A stretch of DNA of 19,595 nucleotides. Origin: Bacteroidales bacterium (GTDB taxonomy: Bacteria; Bacteroidota; Bacteroidia; Bacteroidales; P3). This document shows, piece after piece, positions 2,494 through 19,595 of the stretch. The notes under the pieces are model-generated. The model was not told the DNA's origin. It saw only the letters and a list, made by a program, of their open reading frames with translations, and searched no databases. Numbering within the stretch: position 1 is the first letter of the stretch; each line of letters opens with the position of its first letter. The DNA lies in contig JAFWOP010000060.1 in NCBI GenBank assembly GCA_017545365.1, forward strand, positions 1 through 19,595, in the 5' to 3' direction. Both the position numbers and the translations under genes were made by a program.

Positions 2494-2544
2494 TAACTCA
2501 ATTTCCTGTTTGTAGGCATCGTTTTTGTGTTGTTTGAGTATTTT

Positions 2545-2588: not shown

Positions 2589-2677
2589 AATGATGTCCTA
2601 CTTCTGCAAAATCAGGAAGTCTTTACCGCTTTTCCCTCCCGCTTTTGCTCCATCCAGGCACTATGCCCGGATGGAAT

Positions 2678-2716
2678 TGTAAAGTTTCTTTACATCGACT
2701 GTAAAGTTTCTTTACA
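2678..2716. promoter_or_regulatory. Tandem identical 17-bp dyads, likely sigma-54 enhancer (UAS)
   Basis: The perfect dyad TGTAAAGTTTCTTTACA occurs at 2678-2694 and again, identically, at 2700-2716, so the copies are 22 bp apart and on the same DNA face. They centre at about -111 and -89 from the transcription start predicted from the sigma-54 promoter. Dimers of NtrC-type activators typically bind paired dyads in this zone, and a gene for such an activator lies just upstream. The assignment to that activator is an inference from position and symmetry. Confidence 0.75.
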
Positions 2717-2770
2717 CTTTTTGCTATGGCTGTTTTTCTTATGCGATAGATAACCAGTCGTTTGCGTTTG

Positions 2771-2785
2771 TGGCACGGACTTTGC
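2771..2785 (+). promoter_or_regulatory. Sigma-54 (-24/-12) promoter
   Basis: TGGCACG (2771-2777), four bases, then TTGC (2782-2785) matches the sigma-54 consensus TGGCACG-N4-TTGC at every position. Ten bases separate the GG and GC elements, as required. The start of transcription should fall near 2797. That excludes the ATG at 2789 as the translation start of the next gene and favours 2813 or 2822. Confidence 0.88.
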
Positions 2786-2812
2786 TTTATGACAGGCAGA
2801 ACAGTCAAAACA

Positions 2813-4306: not shown

Positions 4307-4315
4307 ACAGAGTGC

Positions 4316-4396
4316 GGGTTTCAGCGTCCGCCGTGGACGCATCGGTTTTTGCCTTGGTTACGATGGGGCGGCGTGGCTGCTGAAACCCTCTTTTTT
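4316..4396 (+). terminator. Terminator-like hairpin (possible attenuator) between channel and adaptor genes
   Basis: GGGTTTCAGC (4316-4325) pairs perfectly with GCTGAAACCC (4379-4388), which is followed at once by TCTTTTTT (4389-4396). An overlapping alternative hairpin, GCGTCC/GGACGC (4324-4329 and 4335-4340), lies in the loop. The 53-nt loop is long for an intrinsic terminator, but the stem plus T-run is convincing. Because the adaptor gene starts 25 bp later in the same direction, partial termination would give more channel than adaptor. Confidence 0.55.
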
Positions 4397-4420
4397 CACA
4401 AAACTGCAACTTTTTAGGTA

Positions 4421-5707: not shown

Positions 5708-5829
5708 TTCATAATTCATAATTAATAATTAATGTTTAACGTTTAATGTTTAAAGTTACTCTGAACACTAACCCCTAACCTCTAACCCCAAACCCCTAAC
5801 CCAATTTCTAATTCCTAATTCCTAATTCT
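5708..5829. repeat. Low-complexity spacer before the first permease gene
   Basis: The 122-bp gap is made of ATTCATAATTAATAATTAA, GTTTAACGTTTAATGTTTAA, CTAACCCCTAACCTC and TAATTCCTAATTCC blocks, the same classes as at 1-132 and 13787-13930. No promoter or terminator is evident, so transcription from the adaptor gene may continue through it. Confidence 0.6.
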
Positions 5830-8175
5830 TTGAAATCCTATCTTACCTTCCTCCGCCGTAATTGGCTTTATACGCTCATCGAGATGTTCGGACTCTCCGT
5901 AGCGTTGGGGTTCGTTGTGCTGCTGGCGTCGTATGCCCGAACCGAGTTTAGCGTCGGCCGCAGGCAGCCCCTGTCCCGTCAGCTCTATGTTCCTGGCTCG
6001 GGCACGTTCGTCGGTATGACGCTCGGCACGGCCGAAGAGCTCTATGGCGCCATCCCCGAGATAACGGGCTGGACGCGCATCGCCGAGTACAACGGCACCG
6101 ACTACGACATCACTGTCAGCGGCGACTACTACGCGGCGCAGGCCGTCACCGTCGATACCAATTTCTTCCAGTATTTCGACTACGCCCTCGAGGGCTGCGA
6201 CCGCCGCCGCGTGCTGGCAAGCCCCGACGAGGTCATCCTCTCCCGTTCGTTCGCCCGCAAAGTCTTTGGGACGGACGACCCCGTCGGCAAGGTCATCGAG
6301 AGCGCCGGGGACGGGCGACTGGTGGTGACCGGCGTGGTCGAGGACTTCGGCCCCACCGACATCTTCCGTCCGGCAGACGTCTTCCTCGGCATGGACAAGG
6401 CACAGTTTCAGAAGATGGATAACTTTGGCATGGTGCAGACCTTCGTCACGCTGGCTGACGGCACCGATCCCGAGGCCCTGAACAGCAAGCTCCTCACCAC
6501 CTACATGGACTACTGGAAAGACTGGTACAAGGCCGACGGCTCGGACGGCGCGTTCCTCTGGGGCTCGTCGCTGACGCGGATGGACAAACTCTACTTCTCG
6601 GCCCTTAAGGACGGAGGTAACGGGGTGCTCCGCCGTGGCGACAAGCGCACCGTCCGTGTCCTTCTGCTCGTGGCGATGGTGCTGCTGGTCTCGGCTGTGT
6701 TCAACTACATCAACCTCACCGTGGCGCAGACGGGCAAGCGGGCCAAGGAGATGGCCACGCGCCGTCTGCTGGGGCAGCAGAAGAGCGGCATCCTGATGCG
6801 CTATCTGGGCGAGTCGCTCTTCTTCACCACACTCTGCTTCGTCCTCGGCATCGTGCTGGCGGTGGCGGCGAAGCCGCTGTTCAAGCAGTGGTTGTCGTTG
6901 GAGATAATCCTGAAGCCCGATGGCCTGATGACCGCCGCCGCTGTTGTGCTGCTCTTGGTGGTGGCGCTCGTCTCGGGTCTGCTGCCTGCCGCCTTCGTCG
7001 CGCGTTTCCAGCCCATCCACGTGGTGAAGGGCGAGTTTCGTTTCCGTTCGAAGCTGGTGTTCAGCCGTGTGTTCATCGTCCTGCAGAACGTCATCAGCAC
7101 CGTCCTTGTCGCCGTCAGCCTGACGATGGCGCTTCAGATGCACCACCTCGCCACGCTGCCCACGGGCTACCGCACGGACGGCATCCTCTCCGTGTCGGCC
7201 GCTTCCATCGGCTATACCTATGACAAGCAGTCCGTCCTTCGCGAGCGGCTGCTGGCCCTGCCGCAAGTGGAGAGCGTCGGTTTAGCGGCGCAAGTTCCTT
7301 TCCGTACCGGTTTCGACGGCGTACACGTGGAGGGTGAGAAGCAATCGTGGGTCAGGCCGTCGCATCTTGACAGCATCGCCTTCCGTATGCTCGGTTTCGA
7401 AGTGGTGGAACAATATTGCGAGCCGCTGCAGGGCCTGTTCTGGGTGACTGAGGAGGCGCGCGACCGCTATGGCATCACGCCCGACCGTCCCTGGTTTGGC
7501 ACGGTGGACGGCAAGCCGGAGCGCGAGGTCTGCGGCGTCATCCGCGACTTCCGCAGCGGCACACCTATGCAAAGTCCCATGGACGACAGCCACAGCGTGG
7601 TGAAGGTGCTGGAAGAGAAACTGTGGGTCTATAACCAACTTGTGAAGGTGCATGGCGACCGTCGCGAGGCCATCGAGGCCGTGCGCCGCGTCTGCCGCGA
7701 GGTGAACGAGGAACTGACGGGCTTGCCGAAGGAGATGGAGGTCACCTACGTCGATGACTACCTCCGCGACAGCCTGACGGGCAGCCGCCGCGCCATGTCG
7801 CTCGTGCTCCTCTTCACGGGTATTGCCCTCGTCATCTCAGCCCTTGGCCTGCTGGCCATGTCCATCTACTACACCGGTCAGCAGGCGCGGCAGATAGCGC
7901 TGCGCAAGGTGTTCGGTGCCGAGGTGGGCGCGGCGGCGTGGCAGCTGGCGCGGGGCTTTGTCGTGATGGCTGCCGTGGCCGTCGTCATCGCCATGCCGCT
8001 GGCCGTGTGGGCCATGAGGTTCTACCTTGAGGGCTTCTACAATCGTATTGCTCTGCCGTGGTGGGTCGTTCTCATAGCAGCGCTCTTCACGTTCGTCCTC
8101 AGCGCCGCCTCCGTCATCGGCCAGACCCTGCATACGGCGCTGAAAAATCCTGTTGAAACTTTAAAAACCGAATAA
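5830..8175 (+). CDS. MacB/FtsX-type ABC transporter permease, 8 TM (permease 1)
   Basis: This 781-residue inner-membrane permease has the duplicated Bacteroidetes layout. TM1 (about 14-36) precedes a large periplasmic MacB_PCD-like domain, TM2-4 (about 274-300, 327-350, 366-392), TM5 (about 414-432), a second periplasmic domain and TM6-8 (about 655-678, 706-728, 742-768). Coupling-type motifs follow TM2 (EMATRRLLG) and TM6 (QIALRKVFG), and the C-terminus is NPVETLKTE. The start is TTG: MKSYLTFLRRNWLYT places the first helix as in its paralog at 13938, and no ATG gives a sensible start. It lies 3 bp before the next permease gene and shares many motifs with permease 4. Such permeases do not usually carry substrate through the membrane themselves; they move periplasmic domains. 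Substrate unknown. Confidence 0.92.
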   Translation: MKSYLTFLRRNWLYTLIEMFGLSVALGFVVLLASYARTEFSVGRRQPLSRQLYVPGSGTFVGMTLGTAEELYGAIPEITGWTRIAEYNGTDYDITVSGDYYAAQAVTVDTNFFQYFDYALEGCDRRRVLASPDEVILSRSFARKVFGTDDPVGKVIESAGDGRLVVTGVVEDFGPTDIFRPADVFLGMDKAQFQKMDNFGMVQTFVTLADGTDPEALNSKLLTTYMDYWKDWYKADGSDGAFLWGSSLTRMDKLYFSALKDGGNGVLRRGDKRTVRVLLLVAMVLLVSAVFNYINLTVAQTGKRAKEMATRRLLGQQKSGILMRYLGESLFFTTLCFVLGIVLAVAAKPLFKQWLSLEIILKPDGLMTAAAVVLLLVVALVSGLLPAAFVARFQPIHVVKGEFRFRSKLVFSRVFIVLQNVISTVLVAVSLTMALQMHHLATLPTGYRTDGILSVSAASIGYTYDKQSVLRERLLALPQVESVGLAAQVPFRTGFDGVHVEGEKQSWVRPSHLDSIAFRMLGFEVVEQYCEPLQGLFWVTEEARDRYGITPDRPWFGTVDGKPEREVCGVIRDFRSGTPMQSPMDDSHSVVKVLEEKLWVYNQLVKVHGDRREAIEAVRRVCREVNEELTGLPKEMEVTYVDDYLRDSLTGSRRAMSLVLLFTGIALVISALGLLAMSIYYTGQQARQIALRKVFGAEVGAAAWQLARGFVVMAAVAVVIAMPLAVWAMRFYLEGFYNRIALPWWVVLIAALFTFVLSAASVIGQTLHTALKNPVETLKTE

Positions 8176-8178
8176 GCA

Positions 8179-10614
8179 ATGACATTTTTCTCTTATCTCA
8201 CCTCTGCCGTTCGCACCCTGCCGGCAAAGGGGCGGCGGAACGGCTTGAAGGTGCTGACGCTGGGCATCGGGCTCTCCGTGGGCCTCGTACTGGCCGGCGT
8301 GGTCTCATTCCGGCAGACGTTCGACAACTTCTACACCGATGCCGACCGCATCTATTATCTTTCCGAAGCCTTTACGCAAAACGGCGAGGCGCGTGTCTTC
8401 CCTCAGACGAGCGGCGGCATCGCGCCCACCATGGCCGCGCACTTCCCGCAGATTGAGGGGGCGACGCGCTTCCGCTGGTGGGGCGACGGCGACGCCATCC
8501 TCGTCGAGACGAAGGAGCGTGTCCATGCCAACCTCATCTTCCTGGCCGACACGGCTTTCTTCCACATCCTCGACCGTCCCGTCGTGGCGGGCGACATTAC
8601 GGAGTCACTTGCCGTGCCGGAAAATATGGTTGTCTCCATGAGCCTCGCGCGTCGTCTCTACCGTGGCACTGGCCGGGGCGACTACACCGTTGCCGAGGCT
8701 GTCGTCGGTACGAGGCTTTCCTTCGCCGGACAGGCGGGCGGTACTGTGTTCACCGTCGCGGGCGTATATGCCGACTATCCCTATAACGCCAGCTGGCGCC
8801 CCGAGGCAGTGGTGTCGCTGGGCGCAACCAAGGCCTTTACGGGTTGGGACGGCACGATGAACATGGTGGGCAACGACTCATACAGGAGCTTCATCAAACT
8901 CCATCGAGGAGCCGATGTCTGTGATATCAATGACCACATGGAGAGCTACGTTAACGCCTACCTGCCTGTGGAGGAGGCGGAAAGACATGGCTTCACAATA
9001 AATTTCATGGCCAAGCCCTTCAAGGATTTTCATTCTGAGGATGCCTCGGCACGCAATCTGACCCTGCTGCTGGCCTTCGTGGCTTTCGCCCTGCTGCTGA
9101 CGTCGGTGCTGAACTATATGCTCATTGTGGTTTCGACGTCGGTGACGCGAAGCCGCGAGATGGCGCTGCGCAAGTGCCTGGGCAGTGGTGTGGGTGACAC
9201 CTTCCGTATGATGTTTGCCGAAGCCGTCATTCACATGTTGTTGGCGCTGGCGCTGGCAGCCATCCTTGTCTATGCGGCGCGGGGGCTGGTAGAGCAGCTG
9301 GCGGGCGTGAGCCCCATCGCACTCTTCACGGGCGAGCCGCTGAGATGGGCCGTCGGCATTGTCGTGACGGTGGTGCTGCTCAACGGTCTCGTGCCTGGCA
9401 TATTGTTCAATCGCATCCCTGTGGCCGTGGCTTTCCGGGGCTATGCGCGCAGCCGCCGCACGTGGAAGCGCGGCCTGCTGGCCACCGAGTTCGCCGCCGC
9501 TGCCTTTCTTGCCGTCGTCATCACCATCGTGGCGCTCCAGTACCGTCTGATGACGCGCGCCGATGTGGGTTTCGAGTACGGCGATGTCGCCTCCATCATG
9601 ATGCCGGAGGCTACGAAAGACCAGAAACTCGAACTCATTGAGGCTGTGCGAGCCCTGCCCTGCGTGGATGACGCCGCGTTTGCCTACCAGAATCCCTTCG
9701 ACGGCTGCAGCGGCGACAACGTCTCCCTGCCCGACGACCCGAAGGAACTCTTCAACATCCGCGACTTCTATTATGTAGATGAACACTACTGGAACGTCAT
9801 GGGCATCGCCCTTGCCGAGGGCCGTAACTTCAACCCTGAACTCGGCATCGACCAGGAGATTATCGTCTCGCGCTCATTTGCCGACGCCTTGCGCACGATG
9901 GTAGGGTGGGACAATGTCGTCGGTCAGCAGGTGCGCGTCACCGACCACGAGAAGACTGTCTCGACCATTGTGGGTGTCTTCGACGATATCCACACGGGGA
10001 CGTTCGACAAGGAGGGCGCCGACCACCGCGACCGTCCGATGGGTGTATTCTTCTGCAACCCTGAGAAATATACGGGCATGTATCCCTACGTCTTCGTGAA
10101 GTACCATCACTTAGACACGGAGGCGCTGGAGCAGACGCAGGCTGTCGTCGGCCGTGTGCTGACCGGCCAGTCGGCGCCGCTGGTGCCCTTTCGCCTGCAG
10201 GTGCTTGACAATTTTGCAGGCACGCTTCGTTTGCGCAATGCCATCCTCATCGGCGGCATCGTTACGCTGCTCATCGCCCTGCTGGGGCTGACGGGCTACA
10301 CCATCGACGAGACGAAGCGCCGTGCCAAGGAAATCGCCATCCGCCGCGTCTGCGGCTATCAGCTTAGCATCATCCGCCGCATGTTCCTGCGCGACATCAT
10401 GCTCATCGCCCTGCCGTCGGTGGCAGTGGGCTGCCTGCTCGCCGCCGTGGTGGCCGGACGATGGGAGCAGCAGTTCACGCTCAAGGCCGGGCTGCCCGTG
10501 TGGGTGTTCGCCAGCGTCGTGGTGGCCATCCTCGTCCTCGTCGCCCTTGTCTCCGACGGCTATGTCCGCCACATCGCTTCCGTCAACCCCGCCAAAACGC
10601 TGAAAATGGAATAG
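8179..10614 (+). CDS. MacB/FtsX-type ABC transporter permease, 8 TM (permease 2)
   Basis: This 811-residue permease starts at ATG 8179, three bases after the previous stop, so the two are almost certainly co-translated. TM1 (about 22-44) is followed by a periplasmic domain, TM2-4 (about 292-314, 344-366, 387-410), TM5 (about 432-454), a second periplasmic domain and TM6-8 (about 689-709, 740-762, 771-793). Both coupling motifs are present (EMALRKCLG and EIAIRRVCG) and the C-terminus is NPAKTLKME. Its N-terminus (SAVRTLPAKGRRNGLKVL) and periplasmic regions differ clearly from permeases 1 and 4, so it is an older or differently specialised member. It is probably energised by the ATPase encoded 51 bp downstream. 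Confidence 0.92.
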   Translation: MTFFSYLTSAVRTLPAKGRRNGLKVLTLGIGLSVGLVLAGVVSFRQTFDNFYTDADRIYYLSEAFTQNGEARVFPQTSGGIAPTMAAHFPQIEGATRFRWWGDGDAILVETKERVHANLIFLADTAFFHILDRPVVAGDITESLAVPENMVVSMSLARRLYRGTGRGDYTVAEAVVGTRLSFAGQAGGTVFTVAGVYADYPYNASWRPEAVVSLGATKAFTGWDGTMNMVGNDSYRSFIKLHRGADVCDINDHMESYVNAYLPVEEAERHGFTINFMAKPFKDFHSEDASARNLTLLLAFVAFALLLTSVLNYMLIVVSTSVTRSREMALRKCLGSGVGDTFRMMFAEAVIHMLLALALAAILVYAARGLVEQLAGVSPIALFTGEPLRWAVGIVVTVVLLNGLVPGILFNRIPVAVAFRGYARSRRTWKRGLLATEFAAAAFLAVVITIVALQYRLMTRADVGFEYGDVASIMMPEATKDQKLELIEAVRALPCVDDAAFAYQNPFDGCSGDNVSLPDDPKELFNIRDFYYVDEHYWNVMGIALAEGRNFNPELGIDQEIIVSRSFADALRTMVGWDNVVGQQVRVTDHEKTVSTIVGVFDDIHTGTFDKEGADHRDRPMGVFFCNPEKYTGMYPYVFVKYHHLDTEALEQTQAVVGRVLTGQSAPLVPFRLQVLDNFAGTLRLRNAILIGGIVTLLIALLGLTGYTIDETKRRAKEIAIRRVCGYQLSIIRRMFLRDIMLIALPSVAVGCLLAAVVAGRWEQQFTLKAGLPVWVFASVVVAILVLVALVSDGYVRHIASVNPAKTLKME

Positions 10615-10665
10615 TCATTCAGAAAATAATAAAAAACAGTATAACCTATTTAAAAACAAACAGCA

Positions 10666-11346
10666 ATGCTTAAAGTAAACAACCTTACCAAAGTCTTCCG
10701 CACGGAAGAAATCGAAACCACGGCGCTCGACGGCGTGACGTTTGAAATCAGGGACGGCGAGTTCGTCGCCATCATGGGTCCCTCGGGCTGCGGCAAATCG
10801 ACGCTGCTCAACATCCTCGGTCTGCTGGACAACCCCAGCAGCGGCACCTATGAGCTGCTCGGCACCGAGGTCGCTACGCTCCGTGAGCGCGAGCGCACCC
10901 GCTTCCGCAAAGGCAACATCGGCTTCGTGTTCCAGAGCTTCAACCTCATCGACGAGCTCAACGTCTATGAGAACATCGAACTGCCGCTCAAGTTTGTCAA
11001 CATGCCCGCCGCCGAGCGCAAGGAGCGTGTGCGCGACATCATGCACCGCATGGCCATCACCCACCGCGCCAAGCACTTCCCCAACCAGCTCTCAGGCGGT
11101 CAGCAGCAGCGTGTGGCCATTGCCCGTGCCTGCGTCAGCAACCCAAAGCTCATCCTTGCCGACGAGCCTACCGGCAACCTCGACACCAAGAACGGCCGCG
11201 AGGTGATGAAGCTCCTGCAGGAGCTCAATGCCGAGGGCACCACCATCGTCATGGTCACTCACAGCCAGCGCGACGCTGCCTGCGCCCAGCGTACCATCGA
11301 CCTTCTCGACGGCCGCATCGTAGGCGACGTGAGGAATAACCTGTGA
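10666..11346 (+). CDS. ABC transporter ATP-binding protein (LolD/MacB type)
   Basis: This 226-residue nucleotide-binding subunit has every expected motif: Walker A GPSGCGKST (38-46), Q-loop Q90 in FVFQSFNLI, signature LSGGQQQR (142-149), Walker B LILADE with E167, D-loop NLD and H-loop H199 in VTHS. The motif set and length match the LolD/MacB/FtsE group that drives FtsX-fold permeases. It is the only ATPase in the locus and sits between permeases 2 and 3, 19 bp before permease 3. It probably serves some or all of the four permeases as a cytoplasmic dimer. Confidence 0.96.
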   Translation: MLKVNNLTKVFRTEEIETTALDGVTFEIRDGEFVAIMGPSGCGKSTLLNILGLLDNPSSGTYELLGTEVATLRERERTRFRKGNIGFVFQSFNLIDELNVYENIELPLKFVNMPAAERKERVRDIMHRMAITHRAKHFPNQLSGGQQQRVAIARACVSNPKLILADEPTGNLDTKNGREVMKLLQELNAEGTTIVMVTHSQRDAACAQRTIDLLDGRIVGDVRNNL

Positions 11347-11365
11347 TGCTAATAGGAAAACCATC

Positions 11366-13768
11366 ATGTTCAAATACATTCTTTCAAATTTCTTCCACAC
11401 GCTGCGGCGGTACAAGGCGTCGAGCCTGCTGAACATCGTCGGTATGGCGGTGGCGTTCGCGGCGTTCTACGTCATCGTCACGCAGGTGAGCTACGGCTTC
11501 GGCTATAACCACCGCATCCCCGGGGCCGACCGCATCTATCAGCTCAGCTACCCCAGTCCGTACAACAATGGGAAGTACAACACTTTCTTTAGCCGTCCCT
11601 TCGGCGAACGGCTCATCGCGTGCAGCCCCACCGTAGAGGCGGGCGGTATGGCCAAGTTCGGCGGCCCCACGGAGTTCTGCTACATCAAGGAGGGCGACGA
11701 CGTCCGCAAATTCCCCATGAACGTCTGTGAATTTACTTCGGGCGGCGTGCAGGCGTTCGGCTTCGAGCCCGTGCAGGGCTCGCTGGACGAGCTTGCACGT
11801 CCCGGCACCGTGGCCGTCTCGGCAGCGTTCGCCGCGAAGATGAACCTCCATCTTGGCGACCGCATCTCGCAGAACTCCGACGGCGTCAGCGATGCCTTTG
11901 AGATTGTCGCCATCTGGCGCGACTTCCCCCGGAACTCCGACCTCGGCACGCTGGAAGCGCTCTACGACATCCGCGACGAGTCGCTGGAAAACACCAGCCA
12001 ATGGAACTACAACTATTGGGTGCGCCTCCGCTCGGCCGACGACCGTGCTGTCTTCGAGGAGAGCATGCGCACGGTGATGCGCGAGATGCTGATGGACGAC
12101 GGCACGGAGGACGAGGACATCAACGGTCAGCTGGACAGGTTCCGCATCCATCTTGTTCCCCTGCGTGACCATTACTACGCCTCTGACTTGGAGTGGGCGG
12201 GGGTGAAGTTGGGCAACCGCACGACGGACGTCACGCTGCTGGCTGTGGCCATCCTCATTCTGCTCATAGCCTTCATCAACTTCGTCAATTTCTTCTTTGC
12301 GCTGGTGCCGGTGCGGATGCGGGCGGTGAACACCTACAAGGTCTATGGCGCGTCGCGCGGCTTTCTGGTGGCGAACTTCGTCTTCGAGGCCGTCGGCACG
12401 GTGGTGGTGGCGCTGGGCGTGGCGGCGCTCGTGGTGCTGGCCATCACGAAGTCGTCGTTAACTGGAATGCTGTCGGCGCCCGTAGCCTTCGGGCAGAATG
12501 TTCCCGTGGTGCTGACGACCGTCGCCGTGACTGTGGCGGCTGCCGTAGCGGGCAGTCTCTATCCGTCGTTCTACATCACGAAGTTCCAGGTGGCGATGGC
12601 GGTGAAGGGCTCGTTCGGCGGCTCGGCGGCAGGACGACGGCTCAGGAGCATACTCATGGGCGTGCAGTTCGTCATCTCCATCGGCCTCATCATCTGTGCC
12701 ACGTTCATCCGTATGCAGCATGCCTACATGATGAACTACGACATGGGCTTCGACAAGGAACACCTGCTCACGGGCTTCATGAGCGACGACCTCGGATGGT
12801 ACGGACAATCGAACCACGCCTTCGAGGACAGGCTGCGCAGCAACCCCGACATCAAGGATATTGCCTGGGCCGCAGGGCCCATCGTGGGTGAGATTCGCAT
12901 GGGCTGGGGACGCGCTTACAAGGGGCGCCAGATTAACATGCAGACCTATCCCGTCTCGCCCAACTTCCTCTCGTTCATGGGCATCCCCGTGGTGGAGGGC
13001 AGGGACTTCCTGCCGTCGGACGACCAGGGGAATGGTGTCTTCATCTTCAACGAGCAGGGGCGGAAGGAGTATGACATCGAGTTGGACGACGTCATCAACG
13101 GCCATCATGGCGACGCCCGCGTGGTAGGCATCTGTCGCGATTTCCACTACAAGCCCCTCCAGTATCGGAGCGAGCCGTTCGTCTTCTACGTCTTCGGCGA
13201 GAAGACCCGTTGGCAGAATCTGTCTCAGATCTTCATCCGTACCCGTGCGGGCGCCAACCCTGCCGAGGTGATGAAGTTCGTCCTCGACACGGCGCACGAC
13301 GTCAGCCCCGCGACCGACATGGAGACGGTGAGCCTCCGTTTCTTCGACGAGGAACTGGGCCGTCAGTATCAGAAAGAGCGCGAGTTGGCGCGGCTGGTCA
13401 CGCTGTTCACCCTCATTGCCATTGTGCTGTCGCTAATGGGCGTATTCGGGCTGGTGCTCTTCGAGACGCAGCGCCGCAGCAAGGAGATAGCCATCCGCCG
13501 CGTGTTGGGCTCGGAGGTGAAGGACATCCTCGCGCTGCTGAACGGGAAGTTCGTGCGCATCGTGCTGGCGAGCTTCGCCCTGGCAGCACCCGTCAGCTGG
13601 CTGCTGATGAGCCGCTATTTCAGCACCTTTGCCTACCACACGCCCGTCCGCCTGTGGGTGTTTGCAGTCGCACTGGTGGCCGTGCTCGTTGTCACCGTGG
13701 CCATTGTCACTCTGCGCAGCCTCCACGCCGCCACCAGCAACCCTGTGGAAATGATAAAGACAGAATGA
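11366..13768 (+). CDS. MacB/FtsX-type ABC transporter permease, 8 TM (permease 3)
   Basis: This 800-residue permease starts at ATG 11366, 19 bp after the ATPase gene. TM1 (about 19-42, LLNIVGMAVAFAAFYVIV) precedes a periplasmic domain, TM2-4 (about 289-313, 334-358, 379-402), TM5 (about 428-448), a second periplasmic domain and TM6-8 (about 678-700, 728-750, 762-785). The second coupling motif is intact (EIAIRRVLG). The first is degenerate: where the others read E-M-A-x-R-x-x-LG it has RMRAVNTYKVYG. The C-terminus NPVEMIKTE is typical. The asymmetry suggests that only the second half couples normally to an ATPase subunit, or that it pairs with a different partner. Confidence 0.92.
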   Translation: MFKYILSNFFHTLRRYKASSLLNIVGMAVAFAAFYVIVTQVSYGFGYNHRIPGADRIYQLSYPSPYNNGKYNTFFSRPFGERLIACSPTVEAGGMAKFGGPTEFCYIKEGDDVRKFPMNVCEFTSGGVQAFGFEPVQGSLDELARPGTVAVSAAFAAKMNLHLGDRISQNSDGVSDAFEIVAIWRDFPRNSDLGTLEALYDIRDESLENTSQWNYNYWVRLRSADDRAVFEESMRTVMREMLMDDGTEDEDINGQLDRFRIHLVPLRDHYYASDLEWAGVKLGNRTTDVTLLAVAILILLIAFINFVNFFFALVPVRMRAVNTYKVYGASRGFLVANFVFEAVGTVVVALGVAALVVLAITKSSLTGMLSAPVAFGQNVPVVLTTVAVTVAAAVAGSLYPSFYITKFQVAMAVKGSFGGSAAGRRLRSILMGVQFVISIGLIICATFIRMQHAYMMNYDMGFDKEHLLTGFMSDDLGWYGQSNHAFEDRLRSNPDIKDIAWAAGPIVGEIRMGWGRAYKGRQINMQTYPVSPNFLSFMGIPVVEGRDFLPSDDQGNGVFIFNEQGRKEYDIELDDVINGHHGDARVVGICRDFHYKPLQYRSEPFVFYVFGEKTRWQNLSQIFIRTRAGANPAEVMKFVLDTAHDVSPATDMETVSLRFFDEELGRQYQKERELARLVTLFTLIAIVLSLMGVFGLVLFETQRRSKEIAIRRVLGSEVKDILALLNGKFVRIVLASFALAAPVSWLLMSRYFSTFAYHTPVRLWVFAVALVAVLVVTVAIVTLRSLHAATSNPVEMIKTE

Positions 13769-13786
13769 ATAAACTGGTTTAACGGA

Positions 13787-13937
13787 GATGGTTTAAGGTT
13801 TAACGTTTAAGGTTTAACGTTTAACGAGGCTGGCGCTGGTGAAATCGAAGGACGTGTTCGTTAAACATTAAACGCTAAACATTAAACAAGAATCCGAAGG
13901 ACGTGTTCGTTAAACATTAAACATTAAACATAAGAAA
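13787..13937. repeat. Spacer with a 28-bp direct repeat before permease 4
   Basis: The gap starts with GTTTAAGGTTTAACGTTTAAGG-type units and then carries two exact copies of a 28-bp sequence beginning CGAAGGACGTGTTCGTTAAA, at 13846-13873 and 13895-13922, a 49-bp period. It ends in ATTAAACATTAAACAT just before the ATG at 13938. There is no recognisable promoter or terminator. It is the only long gap between transporter genes downstream of the adaptor apart from 5708-5829. Confidence 0.65.
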
Positions 13938-16337
13938 ATGAACTCCTTTTTCCGATTCTTGAAGCGGAACCCGCTTTATACCTTCATCAATGTCGTGGGC
14001 CTGGCGGTGTCGCTGATGTTCGTCATCCTGATTGGCGACTATACGTGGCGGCAATTCAGCATCGACGGCTGGCACAAGAAGCGCGACCGCATCGTACTGC
14101 TTGGTCACGGCGGCACGTTCTTCTCGTGGCCCGGCGCCACCCGCCAGCTGGGCGAACGCTACCCCGAGATTGAAAAGACCTGCTGCGTGATGACGAACAG
14201 CGGCTCCATCCGCAGCGAGAACGGCTCGGTGAGCTACGACGAAGGCGACCCCATCCTGCTGGCCGACGCGACGTTTTTCGACCTCTTCGACTTCCGCCTT
14301 GTGCAGGGCGACCGTGCTACGGCGCTTGATGCGCCGGACAAATGTGTCATCACCGAATCGCTGGCGCAGACGCTCTTTTCCGACAGGAATCCCATCGGCG
14401 AGGCGCTGCGCATCGTCGGCAATCAAGCCATTCACATCGGCAACGAGAACCCCTACGACTCCACCCTCGTTTATACCGTTTCGGCTGTGGCACGCGACTT
14501 CGACAAGACCGTGCTGCCCAACGACGTGAAGGTCATTGCTTCAATGGAGCGCCATCCGCAGGTAATGGGCTACACCGTCGGCAACAACGTCTATGTCATG
14601 AGCGGGCACGGCGCCACCAAGTCGTTCCTGCTGCTGCGCGAGGGCGCCGACCTGACGCCGCAGCTGCCGTCCATCAGCGAATGGATGCGCCAGAACGTGC
14701 CAGCGTTGCGATGGTTCGGTGAGGAGGAAGCCGAGGCAACCCTGACGCCGCTGACGAAGCTGATGTTCGCCCCGCAGAACGATGGGCGCGGCATGCTCAG
14801 CGGCGACCGCGGGCGGCTCACAATCCTGCTCTCGGCCATCCTCGCCATCCTGCTCTTCGCCATCATCAACTACGTGAACCTCACCGTTGCCAACACGGGG
14901 CTTCGCTCGCATGAGATGGCCACGCGCCGCCTCCTCGGCAATACTGCCGGCGACATCGCCCTGAAGCTGATGGGCGAATCGACGCTGATGGTGCTCGTCT
15001 CGTTCCTGCTCGGCTTAGGGCTGGCCTTCCTTGTGCAGGACGACATGGCCACGCTGTTCCGTGGGAAGATAGCCCTGCAGAACGACGTCTCGGCGGGAAC
15101 CATAAGTGTTTGTGCCGCATTTATTCTCGTGACGGGACTACTCTCCGGCATCATTCCCGCCATGCAGCTGGCGAAGTACAAGCCCATCGACGTGGTGAAG
15201 GGCACATTCCGCTACCGCTCGAAGATGGTGCTGAGCCGCGTCTTCATCATCGTGCAGAATGTGGTGACGGTGGTCATGCTTGTCGCCATGCTCACCATTC
15301 GTCTTCAGCTCAGCCACCTTGTGAACGCACCGTTGGGCTTCAACACCAAGGACATCTATTTTGTAGCACCGGACAACCCCGACGTCCTCCGCAGCGAATT
15401 AGAGGCTCTGCCCTTCGTAGAGCGTATCGGAACGTTCAGCGGTTCCGGACTTGTGGGGCAGCCCAGCAGCATGACCTCGCGGAGACTGAACGATGGCGAG
15501 CCGCAGATGTTCTATCTGACGAAGATGGACCGTGCGGCAATGGATATCTACGGTCTGAAGGTGCTGGCCGACTATGGGAATGTCGAAGGCGCCTACTATG
15601 TGAACCAGGAGGCCATGCGCCGCCTCGGCCTGACGGATGCCGACCGTGAAATCGTGTGGGGCGACGAGAGCGACCTTATAGCAGGCGTGGTGGCCGACTT
15701 CCACTCGGTCAACATCCTTGCTGACGTCCGCCCCTATCTCATCAGTCTGGTCGAGACTGACGAAGCCGGTACTCCGATGCTCAACAAAGGGTTCTACAAG
15801 CCCTATTTCATCGTCAAGACGGACGGCTCGTCCGGCGTCATGGAGCGGCTGCGGAATGTCGTCGAAGAGGTCGATGGCTCGACGGCCAAGCTGGACTGGA
15901 AGGTGCAGAGCCTCGAGGCCTTTGTGGCTGAGACCTTCGACGAGCAGCAGAACACGCTGCGCATCGTGTCGCTGTTCACGCTGGTGGCAGTTGTCATTGC
16001 CGTGCTGGGCTTCACGGGGCTGTCGTTCTTCTTCATCCGCCAGCGGCGGAAGGAGATAGGCGTGCGCCGCGTCATGGGCAGCACCGAGGGTGAGGTGGCC
16101 GTGCTGATGCTGCGCCGCTTTTGTGCTCCGTTGGTGGCTTCGTTCGTCGTGGCCGTGCCCGTAGCGTGGCACGTCATGCGCAGCTGGCTCGACGGCTTCG
16201 CCTACCGCACCGCGCTCTCGTGGTGGATTTTCGCTGCCGCCTGCGGCATGGCGCTTCTCTTCGCCGTGCTCTCCATCATCGTACAGATTCTCCGCGCCAC
16301 CCGCATCAACCCCGCCGTGACGCTCCGCCAGGAATGA
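13938..16337 (+). CDS. MacB/FtsX-type ABC transporter permease, 8 TM (permease 4, paralog of permease 1)
   Basis: This 799-residue permease starts at ATG 13938 with MNSFFRFLKRNPLYTF, parallel to permease 1. TM1 (about 13-36) precedes a periplasmic domain, TM2-4 (about 293-313, 345-368, 388-408), TM5 (about 435-455), a second periplasmic domain and TM6-8 (about 676-698, 731-752, 762-784). Stretches near TM2-TM5 nearly match permease 1: YVNLTVANTG, HEMATRRLLGNT, KPIDVVKGTFRYRSKMVLSRVFI. The second coupling motif is EIGVRRVMG and the C-terminus NPAVTLRQE. A repeat-filled 169-bp gap separates it from permease 3, and a probable terminator follows. It looks like a duplicate of permease 1 with diverged periplasmic domains. 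Confidence 0.92.
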   Translation: MNSFFRFLKRNPLYTFINVVGLAVSLMFVILIGDYTWRQFSIDGWHKKRDRIVLLGHGGTFFSWPGATRQLGERYPEIEKTCCVMTNSGSIRSENGSVSYDEGDPILLADATFFDLFDFRLVQGDRATALDAPDKCVITESLAQTLFSDRNPIGEALRIVGNQAIHIGNENPYDSTLVYTVSAVARDFDKTVLPNDVKVIASMERHPQVMGYTVGNNVYVMSGHGATKSFLLLREGADLTPQLPSISEWMRQNVPALRWFGEEEAEATLTPLTKLMFAPQNDGRGMLSGDRGRLTILLSAILAILLFAIINYVNLTVANTGLRSHEMATRRLLGNTAGDIALKLMGESTLMVLVSFLLGLGLAFLVQDDMATLFRGKIALQNDVSAGTISVCAAFILVTGLLSGIIPAMQLAKYKPIDVVKGTFRYRSKMVLSRVFIIVQNVVTVVMLVAMLTIRLQLSHLVNAPLGFNTKDIYFVAPDNPDVLRSELEALPFVERIGTFSGSGLVGQPSSMTSRRLNDGEPQMFYLTKMDRAAMDIYGLKVLADYGNVEGAYYVNQEAMRRLGLTDADREIVWGDESDLIAGVVADFHSVNILADVRPYLISLVETDEAGTPMLNKGFYKPYFIVKTDGSSGVMERLRNVVEEVDGSTAKLDWKVQSLEAFVAETFDEQQNTLRIVSLFTLVAVVIAVLGFTGLSFFFIRQRRKEIGVRRVMGSTEGEVAVLMLRRFCAPLVASFVVAVPVAWHVMRSWLDGFAYRTALSWWIFAAACGMALLFAVLSIIVQILRATRINPAVTLRQE

Positions 16338-16468: not shown

Positions 16469-16643
16469 GTGCAATAAATACACCGTATTGCATAAAAAAG
16501 CATGTTTTTGTGCAATAGACATTGAAAATTGAAGAAAAAGCGGGGAACGTGCGACAAGTTGTTCATCGTAACGAACAACGATGAGCGTGTGATAGAGAAA
16601 GACGGTTATACGATAAACGTTGTTCCGTTTATGAAGTTCTGAC
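16469..16643. other. Gene-free stretch with small dyads
   Basis: I see no gene here. The stretch holds two near copies of TTTTTGTGCAATA (about 16464-16476 and 16505-16517), a TGCAATA/TATTGCA dyad (16470-16476 and 16486-16492) and a GTTGTTC/GAACAAC hairpin (16558-16564 and 16573-16579). None matches a known RNA or regulatory element that I recognise. The low-complexity arms and the left palindrome complete the roughly 600-bp gap between the permease and HU genes. Confidence 0.5.
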
Positions 16644-16728
16644 CGTTTTGTGACGGGTTGCGAAGGGGCGTTTCCTATAGGAAAGTGGCGTTTGCTGCGC
16701 GGTTTGGTTTTCAACCCGTCACAAAACG
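16644..16728. repeat. Left long palindromic element flanking the HU/VapE module
   Basis: The outer arms are a perfect 17-bp inverted repeat, CGTTTTGTGACGGGTTG (16644-16660) and its complement (16712-16728). The centre contains the perfect palindrome TTTCCTATAGGAAA (16671-16684). The half at 16683-16722 matches, in inverted orientation, 19193-19232 of the right element at 38 of 40 positions. It lies about 208 bp beyond the stop of the HU-like gene. Confidence 0.85.
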
Positions 16729-16750
16729 CGGGGGGAGGGATTCGTTTTTT

Positions 16751-16880
16751 AATGAAAAATGAAGAATGAAAAATGAAGAATAAATAGCTTTGCCAGCGGA
16801 GGAACCGGCAGAGGAAAGGGAACTTTTCATACAGGACATTTTATTTTTCATTCTTCATTTTTCATTCTTCATTTTTCATT
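16751..16880. repeat. 31-bp perfect inverted repeat made of TGAAAAATGAAGAA units
   Basis: The arm at 16751-16781 is the exact reverse complement of 16850-16880, with 68 bp between. Each arm is itself a tandem of short AATGAAAAATGAAGA-type units, and the right side continues with more TTCATTCTTCATTTT units and then TTCAATTTTCAATC to about 16925. It lies just beyond the stop of the minus-strand HU gene and could fold into a large A/T hairpin in that transcript. Confidence 0.8.
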
Positions 16881-16935
16881 CTTCATTAAAAAAACCTTCA
16901 TTCTTTAATCTTCAATTTTCAATCTTTTTGAGTGT

Positions 16936-17613
16936 TCACCTGCCGAAGTGGCCCGGGACGGGGGTGTAGAAGCGGGTGCTGCGGGCACCACGCGAGCGGA
17001 GGGCACCTTCGGCTACTAGCGTTTGCAGCCAGGCGAGGGCTTGGTTGCGCGAGATGTCGAAGTGGGTCTCGAACTCGCGGCGTATCAGCCAGTCTTGCCT
17101 GCCGAAGTGCTCTGTCAGGAATTCATCGACTTCCTCCCGCTCTAACGGCCTGTCGGCCCGCACGCCGCTGCTGACAAAGGTGGCGTTGTTCAGCTTCTTG
17201 CGCAGCTTGCTGTCGGGGGTGAAGATGATGCGCCCTATGCGGATGTCCGTCGAGGCTATCCGCTCGTCGAGCACCTTCGGGTGGCGTTTGCGCCCGTCGT
17301 CGTACGTCTTTTTCAGGGCGAGCGACAGGTTGAACGTGCCGATGCCATCTACCTTGAGCCTGTCCCCGCTGAGCAACGTCTCGCCGAGCACTTGCGACAG
17401 AGCCGTGAGCACGCCCTTGATGTCGGGCTCCTTCACGGTACAGCGCTCGGCTATGGTCTTTGCCAACTCGTCGGTGGTGACGGTTGCCTGGTTGTAGGGC
17501 ATGATGCGGACGGGCATGCGCCCCTCGGGAATGTCCTCGTTGTTGAGCGGAGCACGCAGGACGGTCTGGTAGAGGATTTTGCCCTTTGTCTTGGTCTGTG
17601 ATGAGGCTTTCAT
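16936..17613 (-). CDS. HU-family DNA-binding protein fused to a winged helix (HU-HIG type)
   Basis: This 225-residue protein starts at the ATG complementary to 17611-17613. Residues about 34-142 form an HU-like fold: VTTDELAKTIAERCTVKEPDIKGVLTAL, then the strand motif GDRLKVDGIGTFNLSL. HU proteins bend and bind DNA as dimers, and the Bacteroidales HU-HIG group fuses HU to a winged helix, Ig or glycine-rich tail. Here the tail (about 155-217: REEVDEFLTEHFGRQDWLIRR, then DISRNQALAWLQTLVAEGALRSRG) looks like a winged helix, so the protein probably binds specific sites as well. It is divergent from the VapE-like gene with three dyads between them, which makes it a good candidate for their regulator. 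The promoter is seen at 17781-17812. Confidence 0.85.
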   Translation of the reverse strand: MKASSQTKTKGKILYQTVLRAPLNNEDIPEGRMPVRIMPYNQATVTTDELAKTIAERCTVKEPDIKGVLTALSQVLGETLLSGDRLKVDGIGTFNLSLALKKTYDDGRKRHPKVLDERIASTDIRIGRIIFTPDSKLRKKLNNATFVSSGVRADRPLEREEVDEFLTEHFGRQDWLIRREFETHFDISRNQALAWLQTLVAEGALRSRGARSTRFYTPVPGHFGR

Positions 17614-17682
17614 GTGGTTTAAGGGTTTTTATGGGTTGAGAATAGGATTCCGTGTGGCCTGTTTCGTCTTTTCTCATTGTCT

Positions 17683-17758
17683 AAAGCCGTTGGGAAACGT
17701 TTCCTAACCCGTTGGGACAAGTTACCCAACCGCTTGGGATGGCTTTCCCAACGGCTTT
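17683..17758. promoter_or_regulatory. Three 20-bp dyads at exact 22-bp spacing between HU and VapE genes
   Basis: GTTGGGAAACGTTTCCTAAC (17689-17708), GTTGGGACAAGTTACCCAAC (17711-17730) and CTTGGGATGGCTTTCCCAAC (17733-17752) are imperfect palindromes whose starts are each 22 bp apart. The array is closed by a perfect 15-bp inverted repeat, AAAGCCGTTGGGAAA (17683-17697) and its complement (17744-17758). It falls in the untranslated leader of the HU transcript and upstream of the VapE promoter. It could be an operator array, an RNA hairpin set controlling HU expression, or a replication-type iteron array. Confidence 0.75.
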
Positions 17759-17780
17759 GGAAGAATGGATTTTGACGGCG

Positions 17781-17812
17781 CAAAGGTAACGATTCCTTTT
17801 GAAAGGTGCAAA
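17781..17812 (-). promoter_or_regulatory. Bacteroidales promoter for the HU-like gene
   Basis: Read on the minus strand, TTTG (17812-17809), 20 bases, then TACCTTTG (17788-17781) matches the Bacteroides sigma-ABfr consensus TTTG-N19-21-TAnnTTTG with ideal spacing. Transcription would begin near 17775, giving a leader of about 160 nt that contains the three dyads. Confidence 0.75.
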
Positions 17813-17829
17813 CATTACGGTCAAATACT

Positions 17830-17866
17830 TTTGTTAATTTTTCGGCATTTCGATGTATTATCTTTG
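17830..17866 (+). promoter_or_regulatory. Likely promoter for the VapE-like gene
   Basis: TATCTTTG (17859-17866) fits the -7 element TAnnTTTG and lies about 20 bp before the chosen ATG at 17888. The nearest TTTG (17830-17833) is 25 bp upstream, wider than the usual 19-21, so the -33 element is weak or not this one. The -7 match decides the start choice for the gene. Confidence 0.55.
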
Positions 17867-17887
17867 CAGCGAAATTCTGTTTTCGAT

Positions 17888-19186
17888 ATGGTTTCATGTA
17901 ATTGTTTTCTCGGAAAGCTGGGCCGGTGGCTTGGTGCTCCGAAGCGTCAGGAGGCGACGCCGAACAGCCTCAGCGTGAAGAACAATAATGGTAAGGACAA
18001 CGCCCCGGGCGTCTCGCCGCTGGTGCAGGCAGAGTGGTACATCTACAGCCGCTACAAGGTGCGGCTGAACGTGCTGACGGGGCTGCCCGAGATATGCCGC
18101 CGCCGCATGGTGGGGCGCGAGGGTATGGAGGTGGCCGAGGACGACTGGAAGCCCGTCACTCGCCAGGACCGCAACCAGCTGCTGATGGAGCTGGCGGAGC
18201 AGGGCATCGGCGTCATGACGCTGGCGGCCCTTGATGCCGTCATCAACAACCGCTCCGTCGAGGCGTTCCACCCCGTGCGCAGCTGGATGGAGGCGTTGCC
18301 CGAATGGGACGGCACGCCCCGCGTGGAGCCGCTGATGGGGCGCGTGACGGAGGACGACTATGAACGCCGTTTGCTCGTCAGGGCTTTCGTGGCGATGGCT
18401 GTGCAGATGGCTGGCTGCCGTCAGAATGGCTATGGCAACAGCCTCTGTCCCATCCTCATCAGCCAGCGGCATGGCTGGGGCAAGTCGCAGTTTGTGAAGC
18501 GCCTGCTGCCCGAGGAGCTTCGTCCTTACTTTACCGACTCGTTCAACCCCGCCGAGGAAGACCAATGCCTGCGCCGCATGGCTACGCGGGCGCTCATCTG
18601 TCTGGACGAGTTCGACCGCTTCGTGGGCAAGCGGCTGACGACGTTGAAAAACTTCATCCAGATGTCGTCCGTTGATCTGAAGCAGCTCTATCAGGGACGC
18701 TACGAGGTGAAAGAGCGTCTGGCGAGCTTCTGGGGCACGAGCAACCAGCGCTATGTGCTGATGGACGAGACGGGCAGCCGGCGCTACCTGCCCGTCGTGG
18801 TGTCGCGTCCCATCGGGAACGGGGAACTTGACTACGGGCAGCTCTATGCCGAGGCGCTGGCTGCGTACCGCTCCAATCCCGACATGGTGTGGCTGACGGA
18901 CGAGGAGAATGCGCAGCTGGAGGCGCACAACCGTCCCTTCTGTGCTCCGCTGGCGCTCAGGGATTTGTTCAACGCCCGTTTCGAGGTGCTGCCCGACGCG
19001 AAGGCAAGTGACGAGGGGCTGCTGACGGCTGCGGATGTCTATAACCACCTGGTGGGCGTCAATCCTGATTTGCTGAGCCGCTTCTCGGAAGGCCGTTTCG
19101 GCGAAGTCCTGCGCAGCCTCGGGGCCGTGCAGCTGCGCAGTCATAAGGTGCGGCTGTACAACATCCGCTCCCGCGAAGTAGAATAA
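17888..19186 (+). CDS. VapE/VirE-like P-loop ATPase domain protein
   Basis: This 432-residue protein resembles the virulence-associated E (VapE) ATPase family of Bacteroidales and phage satellites. It has a Walker A-like ISQRHGWGKSQF (191-202, K199), FTDSFNPAEEDQCLR, Walker B ALICLDEFDRF (235-245), a sensor-like FWGTSNQ (281-287) and RRYLPV. The C-terminal 60 residues look like a separate small DNA-binding-type domain (DUF3874-like, from memory). No primase or VirE N-terminal domain precedes it; known longer relatives often have one. An ATG at 17765 is in frame, but it overlaps the minus-strand promoter and lies upstream of the TATCTTTG element, so 17888 is preferred. It is probably a DNA-stimulated helicase or loader, but activity is unproven. 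The stop is 4 bp before the right palindrome. Confidence 0.8.
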   Translation: MVSCNCFLGKLGRWLGAPKRQEATPNSLSVKNNNGKDNAPGVSPLVQAEWYIYSRYKVRLNVLTGLPEICRRRMVGREGMEVAEDDWKPVTRQDRNQLLMELAEQGIGVMTLAALDAVINNRSVEAFHPVRSWMEALPEWDGTPRVEPLMGRVTEDDYERRLLVRAFVAMAVQMAGCRQNGYGNSLCPILISQRHGWGKSQFVKRLLPEELRPYFTDSFNPAEEDQCLRRMATRALICLDEFDRFVGKRLTTLKNFIQMSSVDLKQLYQGRYEVKERLASFWGTSNQRYVLMDETGSRRYLPVVVSRPIGNGELDYGQLYAEALAAYRSNPDMVWLTDEENAQLEAHNRPFCAPLALRDLFNARFEVLPDAKASDEGLLTAADVYNHLVGVNPDLLSRFSEGRFGEVLRSLGAVQLRSHKVRLYNIRSREVE

Positions 19187-19190
19187 AAAG

Positions 19191-19267
19191 TAGTGACGGG
19201 TTGAAAAGGAAACCGCGCAGCAAACGCCACTTCTAACGTTAAATGGGCACTTTTCAACCCGTCACTA
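19191..19267. repeat. Right long palindromic element flanking the HU/VapE module
   Basis: The outer arms form a perfect 18-bp inverted repeat, TAGTGACGGGTTGAAAAG (19191-19208) and its complement (19250-19267), with TAACGTTA at the centre (19234-19241). Positions 19193-19232 match the left element in inverted orientation (38/40). It begins 4 bp after the VapE stop, so its hairpin could also stabilise or end that transcript. Confidence 0.85.
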
Positions 19268-19321: not shown

Positions 19322-19465
19322 TTATATGGGAATGTCGTATTCAAAGAAGAAGTCTAGCCAACCTGTGTTTTCTGCATAAAGATGTTGTTTGCCCTTGCAC
19401 ACAAATCCAAGCCGTTCATACAACCTATGCACAGGCGTATTGGTAGCAGTCCGATAAATTGGAAT
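19322..19465 (-). pseudogene. Orphan C-terminus of a GNAT acetyltransferase
   Basis: Translated on the minus strand, the segment reads IPIYRTATNTPVHRLYERLG, then FVCKGKQHLYAENTGWLDFF and FEYDIPI before a TAA at 19324-19322. The RLYERLGF and LYAENTGWLDF motifs are typical of the last acetyl-CoA-binding part of GNAT enzymes. There is no start codon; the segment begins right after the stop of the next GNAT and in the same frame. It therefore looks like the remnant of a second GNAT gene left by deletion or recombination. Confidence 0.6.
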
Positions 19466-19595
19466 TTACTTCAATAAACCATAAATGAGTATATCGTAAA
19501 AGATACCTTCTTTAATCACAGCCTTGCGCATGACACCTTCTTGTTTAAAACCATTCTTTTGTAAAATACGCTGAGATGCTATATTGGGATGAAAG
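19466..19595 (-). CDS. GNAT N-acetyltransferase, C-terminal part (cut by window edge)
   Basis: The minus strand encodes the last 42 residues of a RimJ/RimL-type acetyltransferase, FHPNIASQRILQKNGFKQEG followed by VMRKAVIKEGIFYDILIYGL and LK, then TAA at 19468-19466. The N-x-A-S-Q-R-x-L-x-K-x-GF motif is the acetyl-CoA-binding end of the fold, and FYDxxIYGLL is the usual final strand. The rest, including the start, lies beyond the window. The substrate (protein N-terminus, drug or other) cannot be told from this piece. Confidence 0.8.
   Translation of the reverse strand, partial: FHPNIASQRILQKNGFKQEGVMRKAVIKEGIFYDILIYGLLK

Follow-up and report, generated by a model that had tools for sequence, protein, structure and literature searches.

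RAYT (REP-associated tyrosine transposase) genes are flanked by repetitive extragenic palindromes (REPs) or by terminal inverted repeats (TIRs), some TIR families being dispersed (PMC3733652, PMC3116915). The first of these reports defines REPs by a GTAG or CGTC tag that stays unpaired at one of the two ends and finds them preferentially between convergent and unidirectional genes (PMC3733652). Rep of Staphylococcus aureus pathogenicity islands (SaPIs) and Cch2 of the staphylococcal cassette chromosome SCCmec are initiator helicases whose C-terminal domain recognises repeats lying just 3' of the gene that encodes them (PMC7581432). Here we examine positions 16644-19267 of a stretch of 19,595 nucleotides from a Bacteroidales bacterium (contig JAFWOP010000060.1), the whole of which we call the window. 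These positions hold, between two inverted palindromic ends, divergent genes for a DNA-binding protein with an HU domain and a winged helix-turn-helix (HU-wHTH) and for a VapE-type ATPase, an arrangement we call the unit. We put about even trust in the reading that the unit is one of a family of small mobile elements found in Bacteroidaceae, in which VapE would act on the ends and HU-wHTH on a central array. The family layout, which we hold with belief and doubt in equal parts, would be an inverted end, the HU-wHTH gene reading towards it, an array of four 22-bp palindromic sites, the VapE gene reading away from that array, and a second inverted end. As judged from sequence comparison, an element family with paired ends, an array and gene-less mini-elements is well supported, and we infer that HU and VapE are its drivers; chance, terminators and RAYT repeats fit poorly as explanations.

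Two divergent genes, an array and inverted ends

The left end, palindrome A (16644-16728, plus strand), has 17-bp perfect arms and the right end, palindrome B (19191-19267, plus strand), 18-bp perfect arms; each contains a 73-bp core (16650-16722 and 19193-19265) of the form GTGACGGGTTG...CAACCCGTCAC, these being the arms. A 40-bp copy common to both ends lies in opposite orientation at 16683-16722 (plus strand), 95% complementary to 19193-19232. As single strands both palindromes fold better than all of 200 dinucleotide shuffles (z -5.5 for A, -7.6 for B), and sequences of the 73-bp family of palindrome A are also present at other loci by profile and sequence comparison. The HU-wHTH gene (225 aa) occupies 16936-17613 on the minus strand, and VapE runs on the plus strand to 19186, palindrome B beginning 4 bp past its stop codon. 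An earlier note on this DNA had placed the two palindromes and the two divergent genes at these positions, with the 40-bp core in opposite orientation, and had held that nothing but these two genes lies between the ends and that integrase and primase are missing; all of this is borne out. Its layout needed two changes: the VapE start is corrected, and a 22-bp array between the genes had been overlooked. The open VapE frame begins at 17765 (473 aa), and the start is probably the ATG at 17888, giving 432 aa (17888-19186), because the two nearest relatives in the database, which cover 90% of the query, have 432 aa, and because a putative promoter -7 box, TATCTTTG, lies at 17859-17866 on the plus strand. 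This box fits the consensus of the Bacteroidota type.

The overlooked array (17677-17764) consists of four palindromic sites with TTGGGA/TCCCAA half-sites at a 22-bp period, and none of 200 shuffles was as good. Its generality was examined in a survey set of 54 loci with VapE relatives, 53 of them from 19 genomes of the genus and one (L100) from a contig of a named metagenome-assembled genome (MAG). Thirty of the 54 loci are units, with HU and VapE divergent within 1.5 kb. When periods of 15-30 were scanned and each locus compared with 200 dinucleotide shuffles, 22 was the best period in 29 of 30 units, and in 22 of 30 no shuffle matched the real array. Among 1500 windows of real sequence outside units, 22 was the best period in 26; 265 scored at least 0.7, five of those at period 22, and a score of 0.775 was attained by just four, which all come from a single place in L160 and have period 21. 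For seven unit arrays the score is just 0.70-0.725, so it is the common period and not the score that carries them. The array core varies by type, being CCAAC..TTGG in the window and CATCGCGATG, CACCGCGGTG, CTTCGCGAAG, GTTGCGCAAC, GATGGCCATC or others elsewhere; by inspection, several cores recur across species and the units read within one genome differ. Arrays also lie upstream of four of seven same-clade VapE genes that have no detected divergent HU (L076, L078, L157, L159), while 17 more distant VapE loci had no period-22 array above 0.70. In Bacteroides finegoldii, both HU/VapE pairs tested carry a 22-bp array (0/200 shuffles each).

To assess the ends, the 700 bp that follow the VapE stop were reverse-complemented and compared with the 700 bp that follow the HU stop (E<=1e-6) in the 27 units that could be evaluated, the remaining three having too little flank. 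Inverted-repeat ends were found in 20 of 27, several of the 20 being orthologues, as against 12/696 cross-type controls and 0/600 random segments drawn from these loci at comparable spacing; this upholds the earlier suggestion of a unit with defined inverted ends. The aligned repeats span 35-236 bp. L163 is counted through its outer nested repeat, its inner ends being seen in pairwise locus comparison. To the right of VapE and left of HU in L332 (B. finegoldii), short GGTGAAAG.GGTGAAA motifs stand in inverted orientation and may be short ends.

Other identities were considered for the parts of the unit. A structured RNA was rejected, as an Rfam scan of the window gave no family at gathering score, and a known defence system likewise, as PADLOC matched neither HU-wHTH nor VapE. 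An attC-like site was dropped because the conserved triplets are wrongly oriented. The stretch between palindrome A and HU (16745-16926) contains a long imperfect inverted repeat built of heptamer-type units, AATGAAAAATGAAGA and its complement; comparable repeats of other sequence (GTTTAACGTTTAA, AATTGACAATTGAC, AGTTAGGAATTAGG) occur in several loci examined.

Gene-less copies, sites and signs of movement

A sequence search with the unit L164 turned up gene-less copies of both ends and array. There are eight such mini-elements of the L164 kind, 415-489 bp long and with no ATG frame longer than 75 aa; six have an end, an array and an inverted end (L204, L205, L208, L210, L211, L223), L220 has an array fragment and L222 no array. 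L204 and L208, and probably L211, have common flanks and represent one site in several species. For the ends of the window's type, a profile search of the loci examined, which is no census, gave 29 non-unit places in five genomes, with at least seven further listed places outside this count. The earlier note had asked whether the palindromes occur at hundreds of unrelated gene ends, which these numbers do not bear out. Fourteen of the 29 are convergent inverted pairs of 225-535 bp, some being one element in two species (e.g. L116/L122), and 15 are single copies, four of which lie less than 900 bp from a contig end. Six of the 14 pairs contain a site array (period 21; at most 2/200 shuffles as good). 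The inner parts of L110, L111, L112, L113, L116, L119 and L122 have sites with the motif ACGTAGTGCGT, at 21-bp spacing in several, and some of these seven additionally carry AGAATCAGCTTCTG. A different near-palindromic repeat of about 200 bp, at 2174-2392 of L106, has dozens of listed copies in genome G017.

Signs of movement on an evolutionary time scale come from units at unrelated sites whose homology ceases at the ends. L164 (genome G003) and L166 (G015) match over 3711-6329 and 3278-6248, respectively, the rest of the two loci being without match, and their inverted ends lie at 3710-3813/6225-6328 and 3278-3382/6142-6246; homology thus stops where the inverted ends do. The pairs L073/L074 and L163/L167 behave alike, less sharply. 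Different unit types can also occupy one site: L081 of one type and L163/L168 of another have both 2-kb flanks in common, 86-96% identical. The earlier proposal to look for empty sites was answered in part. The site that L072 occupies in G017 stands empty in G001, G002, G004 and G018, its flanks being 89 bp apart in G001 and 3.7 kb apart in G017; no exact empty site was found for the window-type mini-element L106, and no clean one for L164.

Movement is seen better in other types and appears rare for the window's own, because G001 (the nearest genome of the set, which carries the window at about C3:14469-34063 as placed by the VapE match), G017, G018 and G002 carry the unit in one syntenic region, 3' of the same gene, and G004 alone differs. 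That upstream gene is, by eye, a diaminopimelate dehydrogenase gene (ddh). A jump of the window unit between G001 and G018 was rejected for this reason, since it is the cargo beside the unit that differs: an ATP-binding cassette (ABC) operon, a fused EcoO109I-like restriction-modification gene or an AAA_14/DUF4143 gene. G004 has the unit elsewhere, beside apparent rRNA sequence, and there both ends are altered together to TGACAACC/GGTTGTCA arms. It had been asked whether orthologous HU/VapE pairs lack the palindromes; G001, G017, G018 and G004 retain them at both ends. In two further orthologues the answer is partial, G002 having the left end on a contig that stops inside VapE and L100, with a 97% identical VapE, retaining the right palindrome and lacking the left.

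The sequence GATAAATTGGAATTTA (window 19453-19468) marks the point to the right of the unit where G001, G017 and L100 diverge. It is also found at L066 8321, L107 2613 and L099 372, and three times in L100 (3185, 5118 and 5376) around a duplicated segment, resembling a recombination or cassette junction.

Proteins, sites and competing explanations

The HU-wHTH protein matches PF18291 (E 4.6e-18, 65.9 bits against a cut-off of 26.2), and its model joins an HU fold to a C-terminal winged helix (predicted local distance difference test, pLDDT, 82.8; predicted template-modelling score, pTM, 0.53), with HU, IHF and BVU_2165 as matches in the PDB. It belongs to the HU-HIG family, in which an HU domain is fused to a wHTH, immunoglobulin (Ig) or Gly-rich part. 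VapE matches PF05272 (E 2e-31, 109.6 bits against a cut-off of 25) and belongs to the VapE-like family; in its model (pLDDT 77.6), as read from the secondary structure, the first 80 residues are disordered and are followed by an AAA+ core and a C-terminal winged helix. Its best PDB match is PriRep1 with DNA (7pds, E 1.9e-14, template-modelling (TM) score 0.54, root-mean-square deviation 7.9), ahead of NrS-1, the African swine fever virus (ASFV) PrimPol and mpox E5 proteins; the SaPI5 primase-helicase entry (7ola) is also among the matches. We take PriRep1 to be this SaPI5 protein. Scans of both proteins against Pfam, NCBIfam and PHROGs gave HU/DNA-binding and VapE/helicase/primase families only and no transposase, VapE being without any match in NCBIfam. 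A 2017 paper is said to have predicted a role in conflict for HU-HIG proteins.

Most substitution is of the conservative kind, with dN/dS below 0.5 in 22 of 24 comparisons. The HU frames of L067 and L068, from two species, are near-identical (dN 0.002, dS 0.077), against a VapE dS of 0.371; segments therefore seem to be exchanged, pointing to a recent exchange of the HU segment between these species. VapE matches occur in all 19 genomes of the genus, near-identical loci in named records come mostly from Bacteroidaceae or Bacteroidales MAGs, and relatives are annotated in the database as HU family DNA-binding protein and VapE domain-containing protein. Relatives were also found in 459 phage records, every one below 60% identity; identity reached 32% at best in the 80 viral-contig loci retained from 365, and in a profile search none of these 80 carried VapE plus HU. 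On these identities we rejected a phage module.

The assignment of proteins to sites comes from natural swaps, found by comparing pairwise VapE similarity, HU similarity and end scores in 19 units. The six pairs with similar VapE (>= 0.62) and dissimilar HU (< 0.3) have end scores of 19-35, as in L160-L162 (VapE 0.89, HU 0.15, ends 35), which are alike at both ends (21-35 across four comparisons). The six pairs with the opposite combination (HU >= 0.7, VapE <= 0.30) score 7-12, as in L154-L160 (HU 0.96, ends 7). For unlike pairs (n=127) the median is 10, the 95th percentile 15 and the maximum 21. Over the array region, taken with 60 bp of each gene, three of five HU-similar pairs score 178-181, VapE-similar pairs 22-51 and all pairs a median of 21. 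The partial rank correlation of ends with VapE given HU is 0.33, and one of 2000 permutations was as high. Array correlation with the wHTH and with the HU domain could not be told apart (partial -0.05), L069, which is out of register, having distorted the array values of its pairs. These few swaps suggest an association of the ends with VapE and of the array with HU-wHTH; it is the swaps, more than the global statistics, that carry this claim.

We propose the following route. HU-wHTH would bind the array through its winged helix, bend the DNA and control both divergent promoters, and VapE would be an initiator helicase of the SaPI-Rep/PriRep1 kind, assembling at the end that adjoins the VapE gene and at the inverted copy opposite, and opening both. 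Copying of the unit, or of a mini-element in trans, would follow, and host or helper enzymes would do the cutting and joining that places the copy at a new site, perhaps using extruded palindromes; host resolution of such palindromes, replication-coupled insertion and a helper are candidate routes for that step, and a helper may be needed for movement. Mini-elements would be relatives that have lost their interior and depend on proteins supplied in trans. That VapE uses the ends as twin origins seems by analogy the most economical step, because the right end lies 4 bp past the VapE stop, the left end is its inverted relative and the swaps join ends to VapE, and because SaPI Rep and SCCmec Cch2 recognise repeats beside their own genes (PMC7581432). 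The strongest form of this proposal, which we hold only tentatively, is a class of self-mobilising elements without a recombinase of any known kind, in which an origin-recognising VapE works at twin-origin ends, HU-wHTH operates the central 4 x 22-bp array as a locus-specific switch and replication from the ends spreads unit and mini-elements. Within that form we suggest, with equal caution, that coexisting units diverge in array and ends like incompatibility groups.

Several findings weigh against assigning ends to VapE and array to HU-wHTH in a family of movable units. Ends did not pass the threshold in seven of 27 units (L082, L083, L100, L154, L156, L158, L169), nor in either B. finegoldii unit, and strong hairpins (z<=-3) stand at just 17 of 42 ends (0/37 in controls). 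The right end of the window's unit is clearly one of the strong hairpins and some other ends are inverted pairs with little internal symmetry, so a pair of inverted ends is the usual state in the surveyed set, with palindromic ends as a frequent variant. L155 has ends without an array, and arrays are weak in L156 (16/200 shuffles as good), L069 (6/200), L162 and L172 (4/200 each). The arrays of window-type mini-elements are unlike the unit's own, with their period of 21, and in eight of 14 none rises above shuffles. Eight pairs with VapE at 0.55-0.61 and HU below 0.3 have end scores of just 8-17, and the six good pairs amount to few independent swaps (L160/L162 and the L080/L081 cluster). The other two of the five HU-similar pairs score 70 and 40 over the array region, where the 90th percentile is 70. 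Ends correlate with HU given VapE at 0.19 (35/2000 permutations), weaker and not nil, and the array with the wHTH given VapE at 0.28 against 0.22 with VapE given the wHTH. The VapE C-terminal domain tracks the ends no better than the core does (0.14 vs 0.22), and co-variation gives no support to this domain as the sole end-binder, an idea we set aside. The extra DNA at the L072 site takes in a neighbouring gene, and the edges of the insertion differ from the ends; no target duplication was seen by eye at the outer edges compared, there being no exact empty site for a single unit.

Two other explanations accept that the unit is a coherent module. It could be a helper-dependent satellite, with an integrase or transposase from another resident of the cell (a conjugative element, a phage or an insertion sequence, IS) recognising its ends and with HU and VapE only regulating and replicating the excised unit. 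Such a satellite would account for a unit without recombinase, for the best match of the VapE model to a satellite-type primase-helicase and for the relatives below 60% identity in 459 phage records; a shared foreign integrase, however, predicts something other than ends that vary by unit type and follow the resident VapE in swaps, no integrase or transposase Pfam family had two or more matches among 135 of 145 flanking open reading frames (ORFs), and the viral-contig loci kept (80 of 365) have a best identity of 32% and none with VapE and HU together. We regard it as rather improbable. Slightly less probable still is a chromosomal exchange module, a conserved HU/VapE pair flanked by repeats, at which homologous recombination would shuffle it among strains and sites, possibly in defence against invading DNA, as is reportedly predicted for HU-HIG proteins. 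Four species keeping the window unit in one syntenic region with variable cargo alongside, the exchange signal in L067/L068 (HU dN 0.002 and dS 0.077 against VapE dS 0.371), the occupation of one site by different unit types, and DNA methylase, DarT, HipA, PIN and AAA_14/DUF4143 genes in the flanks all agree with it, but exchange alone would lead one to expect neither dispersed gene-less copies with both ends and array nor units at unrelated sites with homology ceasing at the ends.

It is very unlikely, in our judgement, that the ends are ordinary REP or terminator repeats of other origin that stand by chance at the 3' ends of HU and VapE. The 73-bp palindrome does occur elsewhere, including the 15 single places, and REPs prefer convergent and unidirectional intergenic sites (PMC3733652); the end pairs that unit types have of their own (20/27 units against 0/600 control segments), and that follow VapE through the swaps, speak against it. 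So does the search for the Y1 transposase (PF01797), with no match in G001, G002, G017 and G018 (MAGs, 84-89% complete) and a single match in G004, at another place than the unit. The earlier idea of a RAYT association thus finds no support in four of five carrier genomes, and we set RAYT-spread REPs aside for those four.

If a mobile element family of the proposed kind holds, one explanation would serve for a set of orphan genes and intergenic palindromes, VapE and HU-wHTH genes recurring in gut Bacteroidota without a settled role. Two proteins and a pair of short DNA sites would then suffice to test whether DNA can move without a recombinase, or by means of a borrowed one. With its inverted ends, operator-like array and no known DNA-moving enzyme, the unit is an unusual candidate for a new kind of mobile element.

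Neighbouring genes and comparison with known systems

Most of the window is an operon region of about 16 kb to the left of the unit (133-16337), with genes for a sigma-54-type response regulator, a HATPase protein, an outer-membrane efflux protein (OEP), an HlyD protein and MacB/FtsX-type ABC transporter parts. An ATPase within it is nearest the model of the darobactin exporter DarD, below cut-off, and the region of the last permease gene, between ddh and the unit, is fully matched in only G001 and G017 of the 19 genomes. Just beyond the left end and outside the unit, what is left of the 3' end of a gene for an AAA_14/DUF4143 ATPase lies at 16547-16643 (plus strand), and G002 has an open 414-aa copy at the corresponding place. 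In L067 (G018), 4416-6341 adjoining the unit is a single frame that joins a C-5 cytosine methylase to an EcoO109I-type restriction endonuclease. The Pfam scan of flanks, in which families matched once are not all listed, matched AAA_14 (7), DUF4143 (6), DNA methylase (3) and DarT, HipA_C and PIN_3 (2 each); units therefore often sit among conflict-type genes.

In the literature searched, which reached few subscription journals, we found no HU-HIG/VapE unit described with ends, array or mini-elements. The Bacteroidota HU-HIG and VapE/DUF3874 genes are of the same protein families and have, in B. finegoldii, the divergent arrangement and a 22-bp array; those pairs differ in that inverted ends were not detected. 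Miniature inverted-repeat transposable elements (MITEs) and their autonomous DNA transposons share with the unit the terminal inverted repeats and the combination of a coding member with gene-less members (here 225-535 bp), whereas the unit has no transposase and no recognised target duplication, and the array is kept in many gene-less members.

The replication modules of SaPIs, of phage-inducible chromosomal islands (PICIs) and of SCC elements (Rep, PriRep1, Cch2) come close to the right half of the unit. The VapE model matches PriRep1 best and has a C-terminal winged helix, and a palindromic site lies directly 3' of the helicase gene; with this fold match and a site 4 bp past the stop, VapE would resemble helicases whose origin lies beside their gene. 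The unit differs from these systems in having no primase, integrase, packaging or excision genes (nor the interference genes of SaPIs and PICIs), and in that the site 3' of VapE is one of an inverted pair that forms both unit ends.

The nearest working analogy is with REPtrons and TIRtrons, RAYT genes with their REPs or REPINs (paired REPs). Membership fails because there is no Y1 transposase match in four of five carriers. The enzyme of the unit is a relative of VapE AAA+ helicases with an HU-wHTH partner and a 22-bp array in place of a Y1/HUH transposase, several distinct units occur in many genomes, and the window palindromes, unlike REPs, have no unpaired GTAG/CGTC tag, their outermost bases, CGTC included, being paired. 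What the unit has in common with a REPtron is an enzyme gene between inverted palindromes (20 of 27 units), a repeat of its own for each enzyme type, and short inverted doublets dispersed elsewhere (14 of the 29 non-unit places).

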